A DNA stretch of 21,648 nucleotides from a virus, in the IMG/VR virus record IMGVR_UViG_3300044737_000024, positions 1-21,648 of that record. One strand, given 5' to 3'. The notes below the pieces were generated by a model that saw only the letters and a list, made by a program, of their open reading frames with translations, ran no database searches and was not told the DNA's origin. Positions 5,285 to 13,376 of the stretch are shown piece by piece (positions within the stretch are counted from its first letter, which is position 1; every line of letters starts with the position of its first letter). Both the position numbers and the translations under genes were made by a program.

Positions 5285-6681
5285 TGACGCGGACGCTCAT
5301 TCCACCGAAGAACGTGCATATCCCCAAGAACAGCGACGAGCTAGCCGAGATGCTCGGCGACCCCGGCAAGCTGGAACCGATCGTCACCAACGCGGAAGCG
5401 CTGGCCGGGTTCATCGACGCGTACGCCCAGCAGCAGCAGGGCGAAGGCACCGACCTACACCGCATGGTCGAAGCCGAAACCCAGAAGCAGTTGGCCGACT
5501 ACCTGCGTGAGAAGGACGTCGACGGCGACAACAGCGACCGGGTCAAGCGTCTGAACCTCTCCCCGCAGGGCAAGGGCGGCGGCCGCGCGTCGATGCTCAC
5601 GTCCTACGGTCAGGGCGCACGGCACAACCAGTACGCCCCGGGCGCGGTCCTCGACGCCGAGTTCCGGACCGCGGTGGACTACCTGGAAACGATCTGGCAC
5701 CTGAACGAGGCGCCCGCGGCGCTGGCCAAGCGGTCGGCCATCCGCAACGCCGCCGGCTCGGTGTCCCCCGCTGACGGCGGGTTCCTGGTTCCGGAGACCC
5801 TGCGCAGCCAGCTACTGGAAATCGCGCTTGAGGTGGCGGTGGTCCGGTCGCGTGCCACGGTCGTGCCGATGGACTCCGCGCGGGTCCCGTTCCCGATGAT
5901 CGACGTCACCAGCAACGCGTCGTCGCTGTACGGCGGGATGATCGCCTACTGGGGTGAGGAGTCCGCCGCGCTGGTCGACGCGTCCCCGAAGTTCGGGCGG
6001 GTCGAGCTGGACGCGAAGAAACTCACCGGCCTGAGCGTGGTGCCGAACGAGCTGTTGCAGGACAGCATCGTCTCGTTCTCGGCGTTGATCGAACGCCTGT
6101 GGCCGTTGACGTTGGCGTTCGAAGAGGACGCGAAGTTCATGGGCGGCACCGGTGTGGGTGAGCCACTCGGGTTCCTCGGTGCCGCGAACACAGCCTCGAT
6201 CGCCGTGGCAGCTGAGGCCGGGCAAGGCGCGGACACGATCCTGTACGAGAACATCGTGAAGATGTACGCGCGGATGCTGCCGTCCAGCCTGAACAAGGGG
6301 GTCTGGTTGATCTCGCCGGACACGATCCCCGAGCTGTACACCATGGCCCTGTCCGTCGGTACGGGCGGCAACAGCGTGTTCGTCGCGAACGCGGCGGGCC
6401 CGGGTCCGCAGACCCTGTTCGGGCGTCCGATCGTGATCACCGAGAAGGCCAGCAAGATCGGTGACCTGGGCGACATCAACTTTGTTGACCTCTCGTACTA
6501 CCTGGTCGGTGACCGGCAGTCCATGTCCGCCTCCAGCTCGACGGACTGGAAGTTCGGAAACGACCAGACGGCTTTCCGGATCATTCAGCGGGTCGACGGG
6601 CGGCCGTGGATCCAGTCCGCGGTTACCCCGAAGAACGGCGGCAACACCCTGTCCCCGTTCGTGTCGCTGGCTGCCCGCTAG
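5284..6681 (+). CDS. Major capsid protein, HK97 fold
   Basis: 465 aa from ATG 5284. The frame is open from 5194, but the AAAGGA ribosome site at 5270-5275 and TGATG coupling to the protease gene fix this start. Residues 1 to about 110 are a charged, helical N-terminal region of the delta-domain type, probably removed by the upstream protease. A GSVSPADGGFLVP motif (158-170) opens the HK97 core. Family hallmarks are ESAALVDASPKFGRVELDAKKL (E-loop/P-domain region, about 226-247) and the segment FEEDAKFMGGTGVGEPLGFL (279-298), which is diagnostic of HK97-type capsids. The C-terminus (FRIIQRVDGRPWIQSAVTPKN) is the A-domain end. The longest gap so far, with a strong hairpin, follows, as expected after the most highly expressed head gene. 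Confidence 0.95.
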   Translation: MTRTLIPPKNVHIPKNSDELAEMLGDPGKLEPIVTNAEALAGFIDAYAQQQQGEGTDLHRMVEAETQKQLADYLREKDVDGDNSDRVKRLNLSPQGKGGGRASMLTSYGQGARHNQYAPGAVLDAEFRTAVDYLETIWHLNEAPAALAKRSAIRNAAGSVSPADGGFLVPETLRSQLLEIALEVAVVRSRATVVPMDSARVPFPMIDVTSNASSLYGGMIAYWGEESAALVDASPKFGRVELDAKKLTGLSVVPNELLQDSIVSFSALIERLWPLTLAFEEDAKFMGGTGVGEPLGFLGAANTASIAVAAEAGQGADTILYENIVKMYARMLPSSLNKGVWLISPDTIPELYTMALSVGTGGNSVFVANAAGPGPQTLFGRPIVITEKASKIGDLGDINFVDLSYYLVGDRQSMSASSSTDWKFGNDQTAFRIIQRVDGRPWIQSAVTPKNGGNTLSPFVSLAAR

Positions 6682-6687
6682 TAGCTG

Positions 6688-6719
6688 GCCGCCGCCGGCA
6701 TTCACCCCCCGGCGGCGGC
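6688..6719 (+). terminator. Strong hairpin after the capsid gene
   Basis: GCCGCCGCCGG (6688-6698) pairs perfectly over 11 bp with CCGGCGGCGGC (6709-6719) around a 10-base loop. It starts seven bases after the capsid stop codon. There is no T-tract, common for actinobacterial hairpins, so it could be a partial terminator, an mRNA 3'-end stabiliser that raises capsid over downstream products, or both. Confidence 0.65.
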
Positions 6720-6781
6720 TCTACCCGGGCCGGCAGTGTCGCCCCGGCAACGGAACACCTAGACAGGGAAGGAAAAACCTG

Positions 6782-7219
6782 ATGGCACAGAAGGCATTGG
6801 GCCGGCTGTTCAACACCACCCCCGCCGCGGACGGGAAGTGGATCAACGTGAAGGACGCGGGTGGGATCGCGTTCTCGTGCTACCTGGCCGCGGCGGCCGG
6901 GGACACGTACACGCTGCAAGAGGCGAAGGACGCGGCCGGTACGGGCGCGCAGAACCTGGCGTGCATCACGGAGTACCACACCAACACCGGCGATGGCAGC
7001 GACGTGTGGACGCGTCGTACGCAGGCGGCGGCGGCGACCGTGGTCACGGCGGCGGCGGCGACTCAGAACGCCATGGTCGTCGAGGTCGAGGGCACCCAAC
7101 TCAGCGACACGTTCAAGTTCGTGAAGCTCACGTCCACGGGTGCGGGTGCGGTGACCGCGCTCACGCGGGACCTGATGGTTCAGCGTGCCCCGGCGAACCT
7201 GCCCGCGATGGGGGTCTGA
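6782..7219 (+). CDS. Small head protein, possible capsid decoration protein
   Basis: 145 aa from ATG 6782, chosen because GGGAAGG (6766-6772) lies 9 bases upstream; the frame is open much further left, through the capsid gene and its hairpin, but has no other ribosome site. The protein is Ala/Thr-rich with predicted beta strands and no membrane segment or catalytic motif; it has two isolated Cys (about residues 33 and 60). Strong ribosome site, position directly after the capsid gene, and size all suit a decoration or cement protein. I do not recognise the family from sequence, so the function is inferred from position. Confidence 0.75.
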   Translation: MAQKALGRLFNTTPAADGKWINVKDAGGIAFSCYLAAAAGDTYTLQEAKDAAGTGAQNLACITEYHTNTGDGSDVWTRRTQAAAATVVTAAAATQNAMVVEVEGTQLSDTFKFVKLTSTGAGAVTALTRDLMVQRAPANLPAMGV

Positions 7220-8561: not shown

Positions 8562-9608
8562 ATGGGTTACTTCCTGACCACCAGGGAGGAGGTGAAAACC
8601 TCCCTGGATATCCGTGAGACCGCGCGCGCGAACGCGCAGGTCGACCGCCTGAACGCGGCGGCGACCGATTCGGTTGAGGGGCTGTTGAAGCGGTCGTTCG
8701 CTCCGGTCCTGGATACCCGGACGTTCGACTGGCCGGATGAACAGTCGCGCGGGGTGGTGCCGTGGCGGATCTGGTTGAACCAGAACACGATGATCTCCCT
8801 GGTCAGCGCTTCCTCGGGTGGTGTCACCATCCCCACCCAGAACGTGTTGCTGCGCCCGGACTGGGGGCCGCCGTTCACGCGGGTCGAGCTGGACCGGTCG
8901 TCGAGTGCGGCGTTCAGCGGCGGGGCGACGCCGCAGCGGGCGGTGTCGTTCACCGCGCTGTGGGGCGACCGGGACGACTCGGCGACCGCGGGGGCGTTGG
9001 CCGCCGCGGTGGTCTCGACCACGGCCATCACGGTCACCGTCACGAACGCCGCGCTGATCGGTGTGGGTCAGCTGCTGCGGGTGGACGACGAGCGGATGAC
9101 GGTGACCGACCGGTCCTCTGTGGCGACGGGAACCACGCTGGTGGGGGCGCTCACGGCCAGCTCGGCGAACACCAGCGTGCCGGTGGTGTCGGGCGCGGCG
9201 GTGAACGTGGGTGAGGTGGTGACGTTGGGGTCCGAGCGGATGATGGTCGACGACGTCACCGGGAACACGCTGGTGGTGCGGCGCGCGTTCGACGGGTCCG
9301 TGCTGGCGCAACACTCGAACGGGGCCGTGGTGTACGCCCCCCGCTTGTTGACGGTTCAACGAGGCGCGGGGGGGACCGCCGCCGCCACCCACATCACCGC
9401 CACCCCCATCACGAAATGGGTCCCTCGAGGGCTGCTGTCCCAACTGGCACGCGCCTACATCATGGTGGGGATCCAGGACGAGGCCGCCGGGTACGCGCGG
9501 ATCGCCGGCGCGGAAGGCGCCGCCGCGAAGCTCGGCGACCGCCTGCACGTCCTGGAAGAACGCGCGCTCGCCACGCTCGGCCGGCTGGCCCGGTTCCGGA
9601 CGGTGTGA
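8562..9608 (+). CDS. Head-tail connector protein with duplicated beta insert
   Basis: 348 aa from ATG 8562. The helical ends look like a gp6/gp15-type connector: LTTREEVKTSLDIRETARAN through LLKRSFAPVLDTRTFDWP at the start, and WVPRGLLSQLARAYIMVGIQ with a long C-terminal helix at the end. The middle (about 150-262) is an insert containing two copies of a beta module: VGQLLRVDDERMTVTDRSS (168-186) and VGEVVTLGSERMMVDDVTG (216-234), the second followed by LVVRRAFDGSVLAQHSNGA. This makes it longer than simple connectors. It probably forms the ring beneath the portal. The connector call is from position and the helical ends; the module duplication is seen directly. Confidence 0.75.
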   Translation: MGYFLTTREEVKTSLDIRETARANAQVDRLNAAATDSVEGLLKRSFAPVLDTRTFDWPDEQSRGVVPWRIWLNQNTMISLVSASSGGVTIPTQNVLLRPDWGPPFTRVELDRSSSAAFSGGATPQRAVSFTALWGDRDDSATAGALAAAVVSTTAITVTVTNAALIGVGQLLRVDDERMTVTDRSSVATGTTLVGALTASSANTSVPVVSGAAVNVGEVVTLGSERMMVDDVTGNTLVVRRAFDGSVLAQHSNGAVVYAPRLLTVQRGAGGTAAATHITATPITKWVPRGLLSQLARAYIMVGIQDEAAGYARIAGAEGAAAKLGDRLHVLEERALATLGRLARFRTV

Positions 9609-9609
9609 C

Positions 9610-10002
9610 GTGTACACCATCGAGATCGAGACCACCGGGCCCCTGTTCGACGGCCAGTGGCAGCCAGCCATGGACGATTTCCGCACCGAAGCCGTTCAGG
9701 AAGTCGGCGCGCAGGCGCTCGCGAACTGGCACACCTTCCTCGACGCCTCCATCCGCAACCCCACCCCCTACTACGAAACCCAGCTGGTCAGCGAACTGGT
9801 CACCGCTGACCTGGACATCGTGTCGGACCGGGGCATCATCTACGGCCCCTGGCTCGAGGGCACCGGCAGCCGCAACGAAACCACCCGGTTCAAGGGCTAC
9901 GCGTCCGCCCGCAAGGCCACACAGCAGCTCGAAGGGCAGATCGACCAGGTCCTGATCCCCGTGGTGGCCCGCCTCACCCGACGGTTGAACGGGGAGGGCT
10001 GA
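9610..10002 (+). CDS. Tail completion / head-closure protein, HK97 gp10-like
   Basis: 130 aa from GTG 9610, one base after the connector stop. After an N-terminal beta hairpin (YTIEIETTGPLFDGQW) there are helices, then the diagnostic stretch IIYGPWLEGTGSRNETTRF (residues 76-94) followed by KGYASARKATQQLEG and a C-terminal amphipathic helix. This YGPWLEG-SRN-RFKGY pattern occurs in actinophage proteins placed between connector and tail terminator. It is expected to form the ring that joins head to tail. No in-frame ATG exists upstream, so the GTG is the best start. Confidence 0.75.
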   Translation: MYTIEIETTGPLFDGQWQPAMDDFRTEAVQEVGAQALANWHTFLDASIRNPTPYYETQLVSELVTADLDIVSDRGIIYGPWLEGTGSRNETTRFKGYASARKATQQLEGQIDQVLIPVVARLTRRLNGEG

Positions 10003-10005
10003 GCT

Positions 10006-11247
10006 ATGGCTGTGGGCTGGAACGGACCCGACCCGATCGCCGATGCCGACGCGACCGCGTACGAGCTGGGCACCGAGTACCTGGTCAACACCGACATCAC
10101 GATCACCGGTGTCCGGATCTGGGCGGACGTCTCCGAGATCAACCTGGCCGGGCGGACCGCGACGATCTGGACCACCGGCGCTGGTGTGCTGGCCACGGTC
10201 AGCCTGCCCACCGACCTGCCCACCGGGTGGACCGTATTTCCCCTCACGGTGCCGTTGACGCGCACCGCCGGTTCACACCTGGTCGTGTCCTACGGCACGG
10301 GCGGCAACGAGGGCGCCGCGGTCCACGCCCTGGATGGCGATGTGGTGTCGGCGGACGGCGCGGTGACCGCGCTGTCGGCCGGCAACGCGACCGGTGGCCG
10401 CAACGGCCGGTTCCACGTCGGGGCCGGGGTGTTCCCCACCGCCGGGAACAACGGCAACGCATTCTACGGCGCCGACATTTCCTACACGGTGGGGATCGGC
10501 GGGAACACCCCGCCGGTCGTGACCGGTGTGGACCTGGTGGACGTCGACGGGACAGTGACCGCGACCGCGCATGTGACCGATGTGGACACCCTGGTCGGGT
10601 CGAGCATCCGGTTCGACTGGGGCGACGGGTCGTCCGTGTCGGCGGTCAACTGGCCGACCGTCACCACCACCCACACCTACAGCGCGTCCGGGCTGTACGC
10701 GGTGTTGGTGTCGTGCACCGACGCGGACAGCGCGGTCGGGTACCGGGCCGGCGCGGTCGAGGTGACCGTACCCCCCGATCTCCCGGATGACGGGTTCGAC
10801 ATCGTGGCGATCCTGGACGCGATCACCTCACACGCCGCCGCACTGGGGCCGTTCGAAGCGGTGGTGACCCATGAGCCGAAGGCGGCGACCGCTGGCGGGT
10901 TGACGGGCGCGGTGTGGGTGAACCAAATCGATCTGGTTCCCACGTTTTCCGGTTTGGCTGAGTCGGCGGTGCGGGTCCAGTTCGTGCTTCGCCTGTACGA
11001 CAACATGTTGCGGGAACCACAGGACTCGATCGACCCGGACATGACCCGCGTCGTCAACGACCTTTTCGTTGCCTACCACCAGGACTTCACCCTCAACGGT
11101 GTGGTCACGGAAATTGACCTTCTCGGTTCCTACGGTGAGGGCCTGTATGTGCGGTCCGGATATATCAGGCAGGACAACAAGTTGATGCGTGCGATGTCCA
11201 TCTACCTACCGGTGATCGTCGCGGCGGCGTTCACCCAACACGACTAG
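10006..11247 (+). CDS. Tail terminator with N-terminal DUF4082-like and PKD-like domains
   Basis: 413 aa from ATG 10006 (GGGGAGGG at 9990-9997). Residues about 10-163 follow the DUF4082 pattern: ELGTEYLVNTDITITGVRIW, ATIWTTGAGVLATVSL, TGWTVFPLTVPL, AGSHLVVSYGTGG, and closing strand NAFYGADISYT. Residues about 168-256 are PKD-like: RFDWGDGSS (202-210) and THTYSASGLYAVLVSCTDAD (222-241). Residues about 260-413 match actinophage tail terminators, which normally make up the whole ~140-150 aa protein: DIVAILDAITSHAAALGPFE, VTHEPKAA, RLYDNMLREPQDSIDPDM, and IRQDNKLMRAMSIYLPVIV. No stop, frameshift or internal ribosome site separates the parts, so a single polypeptide is likely. DUF4082 and PKD domains are usual on extracellular carbohydrate-related proteins, so the tail neck may carry host-surface-binding decorations. 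Confidence 0.8.
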   Translation: MAVGWNGPDPIADADATAYELGTEYLVNTDITITGVRIWADVSEINLAGRTATIWTTGAGVLATVSLPTDLPTGWTVFPLTVPLTRTAGSHLVVSYGTGGNEGAAVHALDGDVVSADGAVTALSAGNATGGRNGRFHVGAGVFPTAGNNGNAFYGADISYTVGIGGNTPPVVTGVDLVDVDGTVTATAHVTDVDTLVGSSIRFDWGDGSSVSAVNWPTVTTTHTYSASGLYAVLVSCTDADSAVGYRAGAVEVTVPPDLPDDGFDIVAILDAITSHAAALGPFEAVVTHEPKAATAGGLTGAVWVNQIDLVPTFSGLAESAVRVQFVLRLYDNMLREPQDSIDPDMTRVVNDLFVAYHQDFTLNGVVTEIDLLGSYGEGLYVRSGYIRQDNKLMRAMSIYLPVIVAAAFTQHD

Positions 11248-11257
11248 GAGTACCGCT

Positions 11258-11494
11258 GTGACCGCGTTCGCTGACAGGCACCCGGGTGTGCGGCATTTCG
11301 AACCACTGTTCGCCACCGAGCACCTCCCGCCGCACCTGGCGGAGATCTCCAACCAGTTCCGGGACGTCGCCGAGTCGATGGTGGAGCACTTCCCGACCGA
11401 CGGCCCCGAGTTGACGACTGGGCTGCGGAAGCTGTTGGAAGCGAAGGATTGTTTCGTGCGGCACGCGGTGATCACCGCGACCAAGGGGGGATGA
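11258..11494 (+). CDS. Acb2-like helical-hairpin protein, candidate cyclic-nucleotide sponge
   Basis: 78 aa from GTG 11258, with AGGAG at 11246-11250 overlapping the terminator stop. It is predicted to be two helices joined by a short turn: LPPHLAEISNQFRDVAESMV (23-42), a FPTDGPELT turn, then GLRKLLEAKDCFVRHAVI (55-72). The pattern of a helix, a Pro/Asp turn ending in E-L-T, and a second helix R-K-x-x-E-A-x-x-x-x-x-x-A resembles small actinophage proteins placed in the Acb2/Tad1-like family. Acb2 hexamers trap cyclic nucleotides made by CBASS defence. Alignment is by eye and remote. The alternative is an ordinary tail-assembly accessory protein, since it sits between terminator and tube genes. 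Confidence 0.6.
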   Translation: MTAFADRHPGVRHFEPLFATEHLPPHLAEISNQFRDVAESMVEHFPTDGPELTTGLRKLLEAKDCFVRHAVITATKGG

Positions 11495-11497
11495 CCA

Positions 11498-11746
11498 GTG
11501 TCGAAGTTCGCGCGCCCCAACAAGGCGCTGATCGACGCCCTGGTCCGCGCGCGGATCGTCGACGACCCGAACCAGGTCCGTCGGGTCCTGATCGACATCC
11601 AGGGCGGCCAGCCACCAGCCATCTATATCGAGAAGTTCGGGGACGCGGACCGTATCGCCCAGGCGATCGCGGACGGGTTCGGCCCGGACGACTTCCTGGG
11701 CGAACCGGGTGACGAGCCGCTGCAACCGGTCAATAAGGAGGTGTAG
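11498..11746 (+). CDS. 82-aa conserved-type actinophage protein, unknown function
   Basis: 82 aa from GTG 11498, after a GGGGGG ribosome site at 11485-11490 and 3 bases past the upstream stop. Small alpha/beta protein: a basic helix (PNKALIDALVRARIV), a strand with DPNQVRRVLIDIQGGQPPAIYIE, then an acidic C-terminal half (DADRIAQAIADGFGPDDFL). No Cys, membrane segment or active-site motif. It pairs with the Acb2-like gene upstream, an arrangement I associate with other actinophages. Function is not assigned; the 3' end contains the strong ribosome site of the tail tube gene. Confidence 0.7.
   Translation: MSKFARPNKALIDALVRARIVDDPNQVRRVLIDIQGGQPPAIYIEKFGDADRIAQAIADGFGPDDFLGEPGDEPLQPVNKEV
11735..11742 (+). 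promoter_or_regulatory. Very strong ribosome site for the first tail-tube gene
   Basis: AAGGAGGT with a 7-base gap to ATG 11750, overlapping the end of the preceding gene. Along with the tape-measure site it is the closest to consensus in the window, in line with the need for many tail-tube copies. Confidence 0.75.
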
Positions 11747-11749
11747 GCC

Positions 11750-12496
11750 ATGTCCAAAGAGTCCGGTCTCGGCAACGCCCTGTACATCAACGGGATCGAC
11801 GTGTCCGGTGAGGCACGCAACTGGGACGTCACCAGCCCCATGCAGATGCTGGACGTCACCGGGCTGCGGAAACTCGCCAACGAACGGATCACCGGGCAAC
11901 GCAGCGGGACGTTCAAGTGGAACAGCCACTTCGACCCACTGTCCACCGGGTACCTGGCGCTGTCGGCGTTGCCCTACACGGACGCGGTCGTCACCCTCAT
12001 GCACCGGGAAACCCTGGCCGCACCGGCGGTGAACCTGGTCACTAAGGAAATCAGCTATGACCCGACCCGGGACGACAAGGGTCAAGTGATCTTCGGAGTT
12101 GAGGAGCAAACCAACGCGTCCTGGTCGGACTGGGGAGTGTTGGCGACCCCGGCGAAGCGGGTCGACACCGCCGCCACCAACGGTGCTGGGGTCGACCACG
12201 GCGCCGCGCCACTCCTCGCGGTCGGGTTGCAGGCATACCTACACATCCATGCGTTCACCGGCACCAACATCACCGTCAAACTCCAGCACTCCGACGACGA
12301 CGCGGTGGGCGACCCATACGCGGACGTCACCGCCGGTGGGTTCACCGCTGTCACCGCCGCGCCCGGCGGGCAGATGCTGTCCACCAGCCGGACGTTGCAG
12401 ATCAAACGGTGGATCCGGGTGGTCACCACCGGGACGTTCACCACGTGCACGTTCAGTGTCGCGGTCGTCGTGAACGACACGACGGTGGCGCTGTGA
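11750..12496 (+). CDS. Major tail (tube) protein A with C-terminal domain
   Basis: 248 aa from ATG 11750. Residues 1 to about 140 look like a tail-tube domain: GNALYINGIDVSGEARNWDV (8-27), DVTGLRKLANERI (35-47), GTFKWNSHFDP (53-63), then a long strand/loop segment. The tail about 150-248 is a second beta domain (AYLHIHAFTGTNITVKLQHS, LQIKRWIRVVTTGTFTTCTF), like the Ig-like or carbohydrate-binding extensions on many tail-tube proteins. The related shorter protein at 12969 shares the DVTGL.K.ANER motif. The strong ribosome site and position between terminator and chaperone support the tube role. I cannot tell which of the two forms the tube. Confidence 0.8.
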   Translation: MSKESGLGNALYINGIDVSGEARNWDVTSPMQMLDVTGLRKLANERITGQRSGTFKWNSHFDPLSTGYLALSALPYTDAVVTLMHRETLAAPAVNLVTKEISYDPTRDDKGQVIFGVEEQTNASWSDWGVLATPAKRVDTAATNGAGVDHGAAPLLAVGLQAYLHIHAFTGTNITVKLQHSDDDAVGDPYADVTAGGFTAVTAAPGGQMLSTSRTLQIKRWIRVVTTGTFTTCTFSVAVVVNDTTVAL

Positions 12497-12968: not shown

Positions 12969-13376
12969 ATGGCGAAGATCAACGGTCTGGGATTGACGGC
13001 GTTCAACATCGACGACAGCGGTGGCACGCCAAGGGATGTGCGCAACGACCTGGGCAACTTCGGGATCTCCACGCCCCGCGCCGTGCAGGACGTCACTGGT
13101 CTGGACAAGTCCGCGAACGAACGGCTGCTGCTGCTCGCCGACTACGCCCTGGACACCTCTGGGTTCTTCAACCCCACCGCCACGAAGTTGCACGACGTGG
13201 GTAAGACGATCTCGTCGACGTCGGTGGCTCGGACCGTGGGGATCACGTTCGGTGGCGTCAGCCTCAACGCCGAGATGTACGGGACCGACTACCAGGTGAC
13301 GCGTGCGGAAGGCGGCGCCTTGACCTGCAAGATCCCGTGGGTCCTCGCCGACGGCACTGTCCCCACTTGGTCCTGA
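12969..13376 (+). CDS. Tail-tube-like protein B (paralogue of the 11750 product)
   Basis: 135 aa from ATG 12969 (AAGGAAGGG at 12949-12957). It is the length of a bare tail-tube domain. DVTGLDKSANERL (41-53) corresponds to DVTGLRKLANERI in the first tube protein, and each is followed by a G-[FT]-[FK]-x-NP/DP segment (SGFFNPT here, GTFKWNSHFDP there). It lacks the C-terminal domain. Its strands (VARTVGITFGGVSLNAEMYG and TCKIPWVLADG) match a small beta-barrel. It is directly before the tail chaperone, the usual place of a tail-tube gene. It could be the main tube subunit, with the other carrying decorations, or a minor variant. Confidence 0.75.
   Translation: MAKINGLGLTAFNIDDSGGTPRDVRNDLGNFGISTPRAVQDVTGLDKSANERLLLLADYALDTSGFFNPTATKLHDVGKTISSTSVARTVGITFGGVSLNAEMYGTDYQVTRAEGGALTCKIPWVLADGTVPTWS

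Follow-up and report, generated by a model that had tools for sequence, protein, structure and literature searches.

Decorations of phage heads and tails are common, and the locus described here raises the question of whether they can also be built into the tail terminator, the ring onto which the head must dock, and of what they would do there. The window, i.e., the whole stretch of DNA that was analysed (21,648 nucleotides, corresponding to positions 1 to 21,648 of the IMG/VR virus record IMGVR_UViG_3300044737_000024), includes one open frame in which a DUF4082 domain and a PKD domain precede a tail terminator (Table 1). In other phages, terminators form a hexameric ring that sits on the last ring of the tail tube and presents a surface to the head (PMC11784142). 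Our reading, to which we give a probability of roughly two in three, is that the product of this frame is a structural tail terminator carrying an accessory DUF4082-PKD arm, which most likely serves low-affinity adhesion to polysaccharide at the host surface. The more specific proposal that a terminator ring with six flexible DUF4082-PKD arms constitutes an undescribed device, namely a host-glycan-binding collar at the neck whose module has been repeatedly gained or lost among related phages, is put forward tentatively, at odds that are slightly unfavourable.

Table 1. Coordinates in the window of the fused gene, its predicted domains and its neighbours.
Feature	Position	Strand	Basis or remark
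Head-tail adaptor gene, 348 aa, upstream	8562..9608	+	phrog_442 head-tail adaptor, E=0.00027
130-aa gene between adaptor and terminator	9610..10002	+	Head closure or gp10-like, identity uncertain
Ribosome-binding site of fused gene, GGGGAGGG	9991..9998	+	Read directly in the sequence
Fused gene DUF4082-PKD-tail terminator	10006..11247	+	Open frame, ATG start, 413 codons (413 aa)
DUF4082 domain, residues 8-154, predicted beta-sandwich	10027..10467	+	PF13313
PKD (Ig-like) domain, residues 166-256, WGDG motif	10501..10773	+	PKD_4/PKD profiles and fold
Tail terminator domain, residues about 262-413	10789..11244	+	Predicted fold, Dagobah homologue
Pair of small genes (78 and 82 aa) separating the terminator gene from that of the major tail protein	11258-11746
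Major tail protein gene, downstream	11750..12496	+	phrog_9522, E=3e-17
Second major-tail-like gene	12969-13376		phrog_10528 'major tail protein', E=0.0004

The neighbours in the window form a siphophage head-tail module (terminase, portal, protease, capsid and tape measure), within which the fused gene follows the head-tail adaptor gene and precedes the major tail genes, the location expected of a terminator. An AlphaFold2 model of the fused protein, built from 73 sequences, reached a mean pLDDT of 87.6, with values above 90 over most of residues 262-413, where the terminator fold (a four-stranded sheet flanked by two helices) was present; the pTM of 0.45 is read as the modelled domains floating relative to each other. 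When residues 262-413 were compared with solved structures, at least ten terminators or collar proteins were matched at Z 10.9-13.9, including the R2 pyocin collar (6u5f, Z 13.9), λ gpU (3fz2, Z 13.3 over 126 residues, rmsd 2.8), the diffocin collar (Z 13.2), T5 p142 (8bcp, Z 12.8), the P74-26 neck (Z 12.4), the Mu terminator (Z 12.2), and the terminators of RcGTA (Z 11.6) and R4C (Z 10.9). The predicted fold is thus common to the λ, T5 and R4C terminators over about 126-136 residues (Z 11-13), and the position just before the major tail protein gene is common to λ gpU, T5 p142, SPP1 gp17 and R4C gp18; in contrast to the window protein, these four are single domains of about 130-160 aa devoid of DUF4082 and PKD.

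No family was matched by Pfam on residues 258-413, PHROG and NCBIfam returned nothing useful for the window's own terminator domain, and phrog_4204 ('tail terminator') was matched by 7 of 66 family members, with a best E of 2e-4, the window's own domain being unmatched. The nearest annotated relative (43% identity) is HUN42_00017 of Streptomyces phage Dagobah, which shares its neighbours with the window gene, an adaptor homologue before and a major tail homologue after, but is a stand-alone protein of 157 aa annotated as a hypothetical protein, whereas the window version is fused. Since fold, size and gene position agree, the C-terminal domain was filed as a tail terminator, bearing out what the preliminary description of this DNA had proposed for it; residues 262-413 would be expected to form a hexamer. 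A terminator family that has no Pfam model, and that figures as hypothetical in Dagobah, can now be named. Separately, fragments of the coronavirus spike appeared among the matches of a four-row profile against the PDB (E 0.008-0.6, over one short helix); these are attributed to chance, because they were lost with a 17-row profile.

Turning to the N-terminal part, the preliminary description had likened about 255 residues to two extracellular beta-sandwich domains of DUF4082 and PKD type, and profile matches to both confirmed this. In a Pfam scan of the window protein, PF13313 matched at E=7e-16 (58.9 bits, the curated cut-off being 28.4), and DUF4082 scores of 50-74 bits were obtained in seven homologues. 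The PKD match, placed by Pfam at about residues 166-246, remained just under the cut-off in the whole-protein scan (PKD_4 23.7 and PKD 20.3 bits) and was just over it when the domain was scanned alone (PKD_4, PF18911, 27.9 bits; PKD, PF00801, 24.9 bits); PKD_4 also scored above the cut-off in six homologues (L088, L100, L102, L103, L106 and L107). The PKD model superposed on the PKD1 domain 6aem over 84 of 84 residues (Z 12.7, rmsd 1.8) and on several collagenase PKD domains at Z 11-12, and the WGDG motif is conserved, so that the predicted PKD identity of residues 166-256 is firm.

The structural affinities of the DUF4082 domain are broader. Taken from the full model and compared with solved structures, it matched chain Z of the cyanophage A4 capsid (Z 11.6), PHR domains (Z 11.5), and domains from two phage adhesion structures, the baseplate of phi812 and the central fibre of Douge (Z 11.3-11.8, the Douge superpositions having an rmsd above 6). 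Folded alone, it was predicted with modest confidence (pLDDT 69.5), and the same targets led at Z 6.7-8.8, with eukaryotic PHR domains at Z 8.5-8.8, while lectins and carbohydrate-binding modules (CBMs) reached about 4-4.5 against this same DUF4082-only model. That the closest non-phage folds are eukaryotic PHR domains counts against the adhesion reading, in favour of which the resemblance to the Douge and phi812 domains speaks. In cells, DUF4082 is found in long proteins beside cadherin-like modules rather than in capsid-binding proteins, as in a Rhizobium plasmid protein of 1643 residues, where stretches of both kinds alternate (the cadherin-like ones read by eye). Judged from these sequences, the cellular context suggests a surface-adhesion module, though it does not amount to proof of sugar binding.

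A search for homologues of the same architecture, as proposed in the preliminary description, was carried out with two profiles, the terminator part (of which the best 80 of 397 IMG/VR relatives were retained) and the N-terminal part (ten loci), and yielded 10 further IMG/VR loci of uncultured bacterial viruses besides the window: L001, L002, L088, L100, L101, L102, L103, L104, L106 and L107; L103 is nearly a copy of L104, and the 5' end of L107 is truncated. Full-length identity to the window protein was 95% for L001, 89% for L002 and 39-47% for the others. Every DUF4082-PKD relative found in the IMG/VR pattern scan was joined to this terminator, and in all loci retrieved the family DUF4082 profile matched the terminator frame only. 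The possibility raised earlier that homologues might always lack the N-terminal part is thus answered by these loci, although most relatives do lack it: stand-alone terminators of about 151-160 aa, starting near the position equivalent to residue about 258-262, made up 62 of 73 aligned rows, to which Dagobah is added, a proportion that reflects the best matches among the 397 IMG/VR relatives and is not a census. A profile scan of genome contigs with a four-row alignment retrieved one more stand-alone homologue (L108, SCVR01000015.1), whose 39-kb contig, binned as a Dehalococcoidia metagenome-assembled genome, shows the same order of tail genes. Because most relatives have a stand-alone terminator, the arm is considered accessory and not a family-wide trait. 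In the terminator tree the fused forms appeared in several places, requiring 5 changes, at least 2 of them forced by well-supported branches, while the bootstrap had not converged and most deep forks are weak; repeated gain or loss of the arm is likely, though this tree does not prove it. Among the best 50 BFVD matches no model superposed on all three domains, a result that does not prove absence, and the good single-domain matches corresponded to stand-alone terminator-like proteins.

With these elements, the reading we prefer would operate as follows. The C-terminal domain would assemble into a ring of six subunits, stopping the growth of the tail tube and giving the head a surface to dock on. 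Because that ring is expected to be hexameric, up to six DUF4082 arms mounted on PKD spacers would radiate outward from the neck. The arms would then adhere weakly to host-surface polysaccharide, in the manner of the surface domains of mycobacteriophage Douge. In that phage, mycobacterial glycans are bound by Ig-like and carbohydrate-binding domains that the tail tube, the capsid and the baseplate carry, an activity which, in its authors' proposal, helps the particle to lie along the cell (PMC13033339). The likeness lies in the fusion of surface domains to structural ring proteins; the Douge Ig-like domains described there differ in being carried by the tail tube and capsid, not by the terminator, and in lacking DUF4082. 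By this analogy, we give glycan binding by the arm about an even chance.

The earlier statement that host-binding decorations are rarely described at the neck holds only in part, since precedents exist in the neck passage structure of 936-type and TP901-1 phages and in the adaptor of roseophage R4C, the R4C authors themselves doubting a role in adsorption. The lactococcal neck passage structure (PMC6669499) likewise forms a collar at the neck, and its modules may bind saccharides of the host, but it is a separate protein of 500-900 aa, composed of a BppU-like ring domain, a trimeric coiled coil and a CBM, and is not the terminator; the window protein yielded no BppU match, and no long helix was modelled in it beyond the terminator domain. 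The R4C adaptor is closer in that a neck-ring protein also bears an extra Ig-like domain, although this domain is carried by a 12-fold adaptor and comes without DUF4082, and its authors relate it to attachment to the capsid and not to adsorption (PMC10276861). An arm located in the same neck region could by extension be a structural clamp of the joint, and this is the best-placed alternative. We regard it as unlikely, since most relatives join head and tail with no arm, which is thus unneeded for the joint, and the cellular company of DUF4082 described above is not that of capsid binders.

Less probable, by about half, is that the N-terminal part regulates assembly, maintaining the terminator monomeric and soluble until the last tail-tube ring is reached, and being then cleaved, or retained with no host binding. 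T5 p142 provides the grounds for this: its N-terminus contributes to the contacts between subunits, and the protein stays monomeric when tagged at that end, while the C-terminally tagged form polymerises into fibres (PMC11784142). For the same reasons, an N-terminal fusion might disturb ring formation and not simply decorate the ring. Stand-alone terminators are nonetheless the rule in the family, and two conserved surface-type domains exceed what such a role needs. That source also mentions larger terminators for contractile tails, whose sheath is served by the additional domains.

A third alternative, slightly less probable still, is that the gene is translated in two forms, with a start inside the frame near residue 258 supplying additional stand-alone terminator so that arms are present on some of the six subunits only. 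GTG and ATG codons do occur near the junction, and in L100 one such start pairs fairly well (-8.4 kcal/mol); however, the internal starts are not conserved in position among the homologues compared, and the two window candidates are weak, with duplex energies of -3.6 and -4.1 kcal/mol against -11.3 kcal/mol for the pairing of GGGGAGGG with the 16S 3' end at the main start. This strong site and the ATG confirmed the 413-codon frame at exactly the position given beforehand. The dN/dS of the fused gene was 0.20 and 0.10 against the two close relatives (L001 and L002) and, in these same comparisons, ranged 0.05-0.40 in each domain and across the linker and junction, most changes being synonymous, which indicates at the sequence level that purifying selection is acting on the arm domains and the linker. 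Given the conserved fusion, the low dN/dS and the absence of a conserved junction start, the gene yields a single chain as far as its sequence tells. An assembly or frameshift artefact, or a wrong upstream start joining two genes, to which the start of most homologues near residue 258 might point, has a negligible probability and is already refuted, because the three-domain frame recurs in 10 further loci (9 distinct) with full-length identities down to 39-47% and low dN/dS across the linker.

Each of the domains is already known, as are neck decorations and the larger terminators of contractile tails; a decoration within the terminator itself is what we found no report of. Our literature search, which reached few subscription journals and is accordingly weak evidence, retrieved no description of a tail terminator with adhesin-like domains, and a single mention of DUF4082. 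At the nucleotide level, the window as a whole had no match among phage records. Should the arms be displayed, head docking must be able to proceed on a ring bearing six N-terminal extensions of about 257 residues, and host recognition would gain a further site at the neck; moreover, the fused terminator provides a testable setting for DUF4082, a domain with no assigned function.

The surrounding genes merit some further remarks. In nearly all loci the terminator gene is preceded by an adaptor homologue, and the 130-aa gene, for which no Pfam or PHROG family was matched, keeps its place between both in most of them. In Dagobah (11088-11423) and in L023 (2046-2435), its homologue is found downstream of the second major-tail-like gene, hence its neck role is uncertain. 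The first of the two small genes (78 aa) matched phrog_5120, of unknown function, at E=6e-29; in many relatives, the gap between the terminator and major tail protein genes holds other genes or none. phrog_10528 also matches the first major tail protein gene, more weakly, and the major-tail-like pair, with a gene of ~150 aa in between, recurs in Dagobah and in almost every related locus.

Some minor observations concern these same gene clusters. The adaptor of the window is longer than expected, and its residues 189-258 weakly resemble a tail protein profile, so that this middle stretch is possibly another neck decoration. Residues 167-239 of the major tail protein weakly resemble Bbp16 (PF21190, E=0.007, below the cut-off), and from its sequence the tail tube may also bear a decoration domain. 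In L010, a separate 204-aa gene (6450-7064), situated between the gene of a stand-alone terminator and that of the major tail protein, has a weak DUF4082 match just below the cut-off (E=7e-6), and possibly represents the same decoration in unfused form. Finally, a gene resembling HNH homing endonucleases, recognised by eye, lies within the tail gene cluster of L014 (7619-8140).
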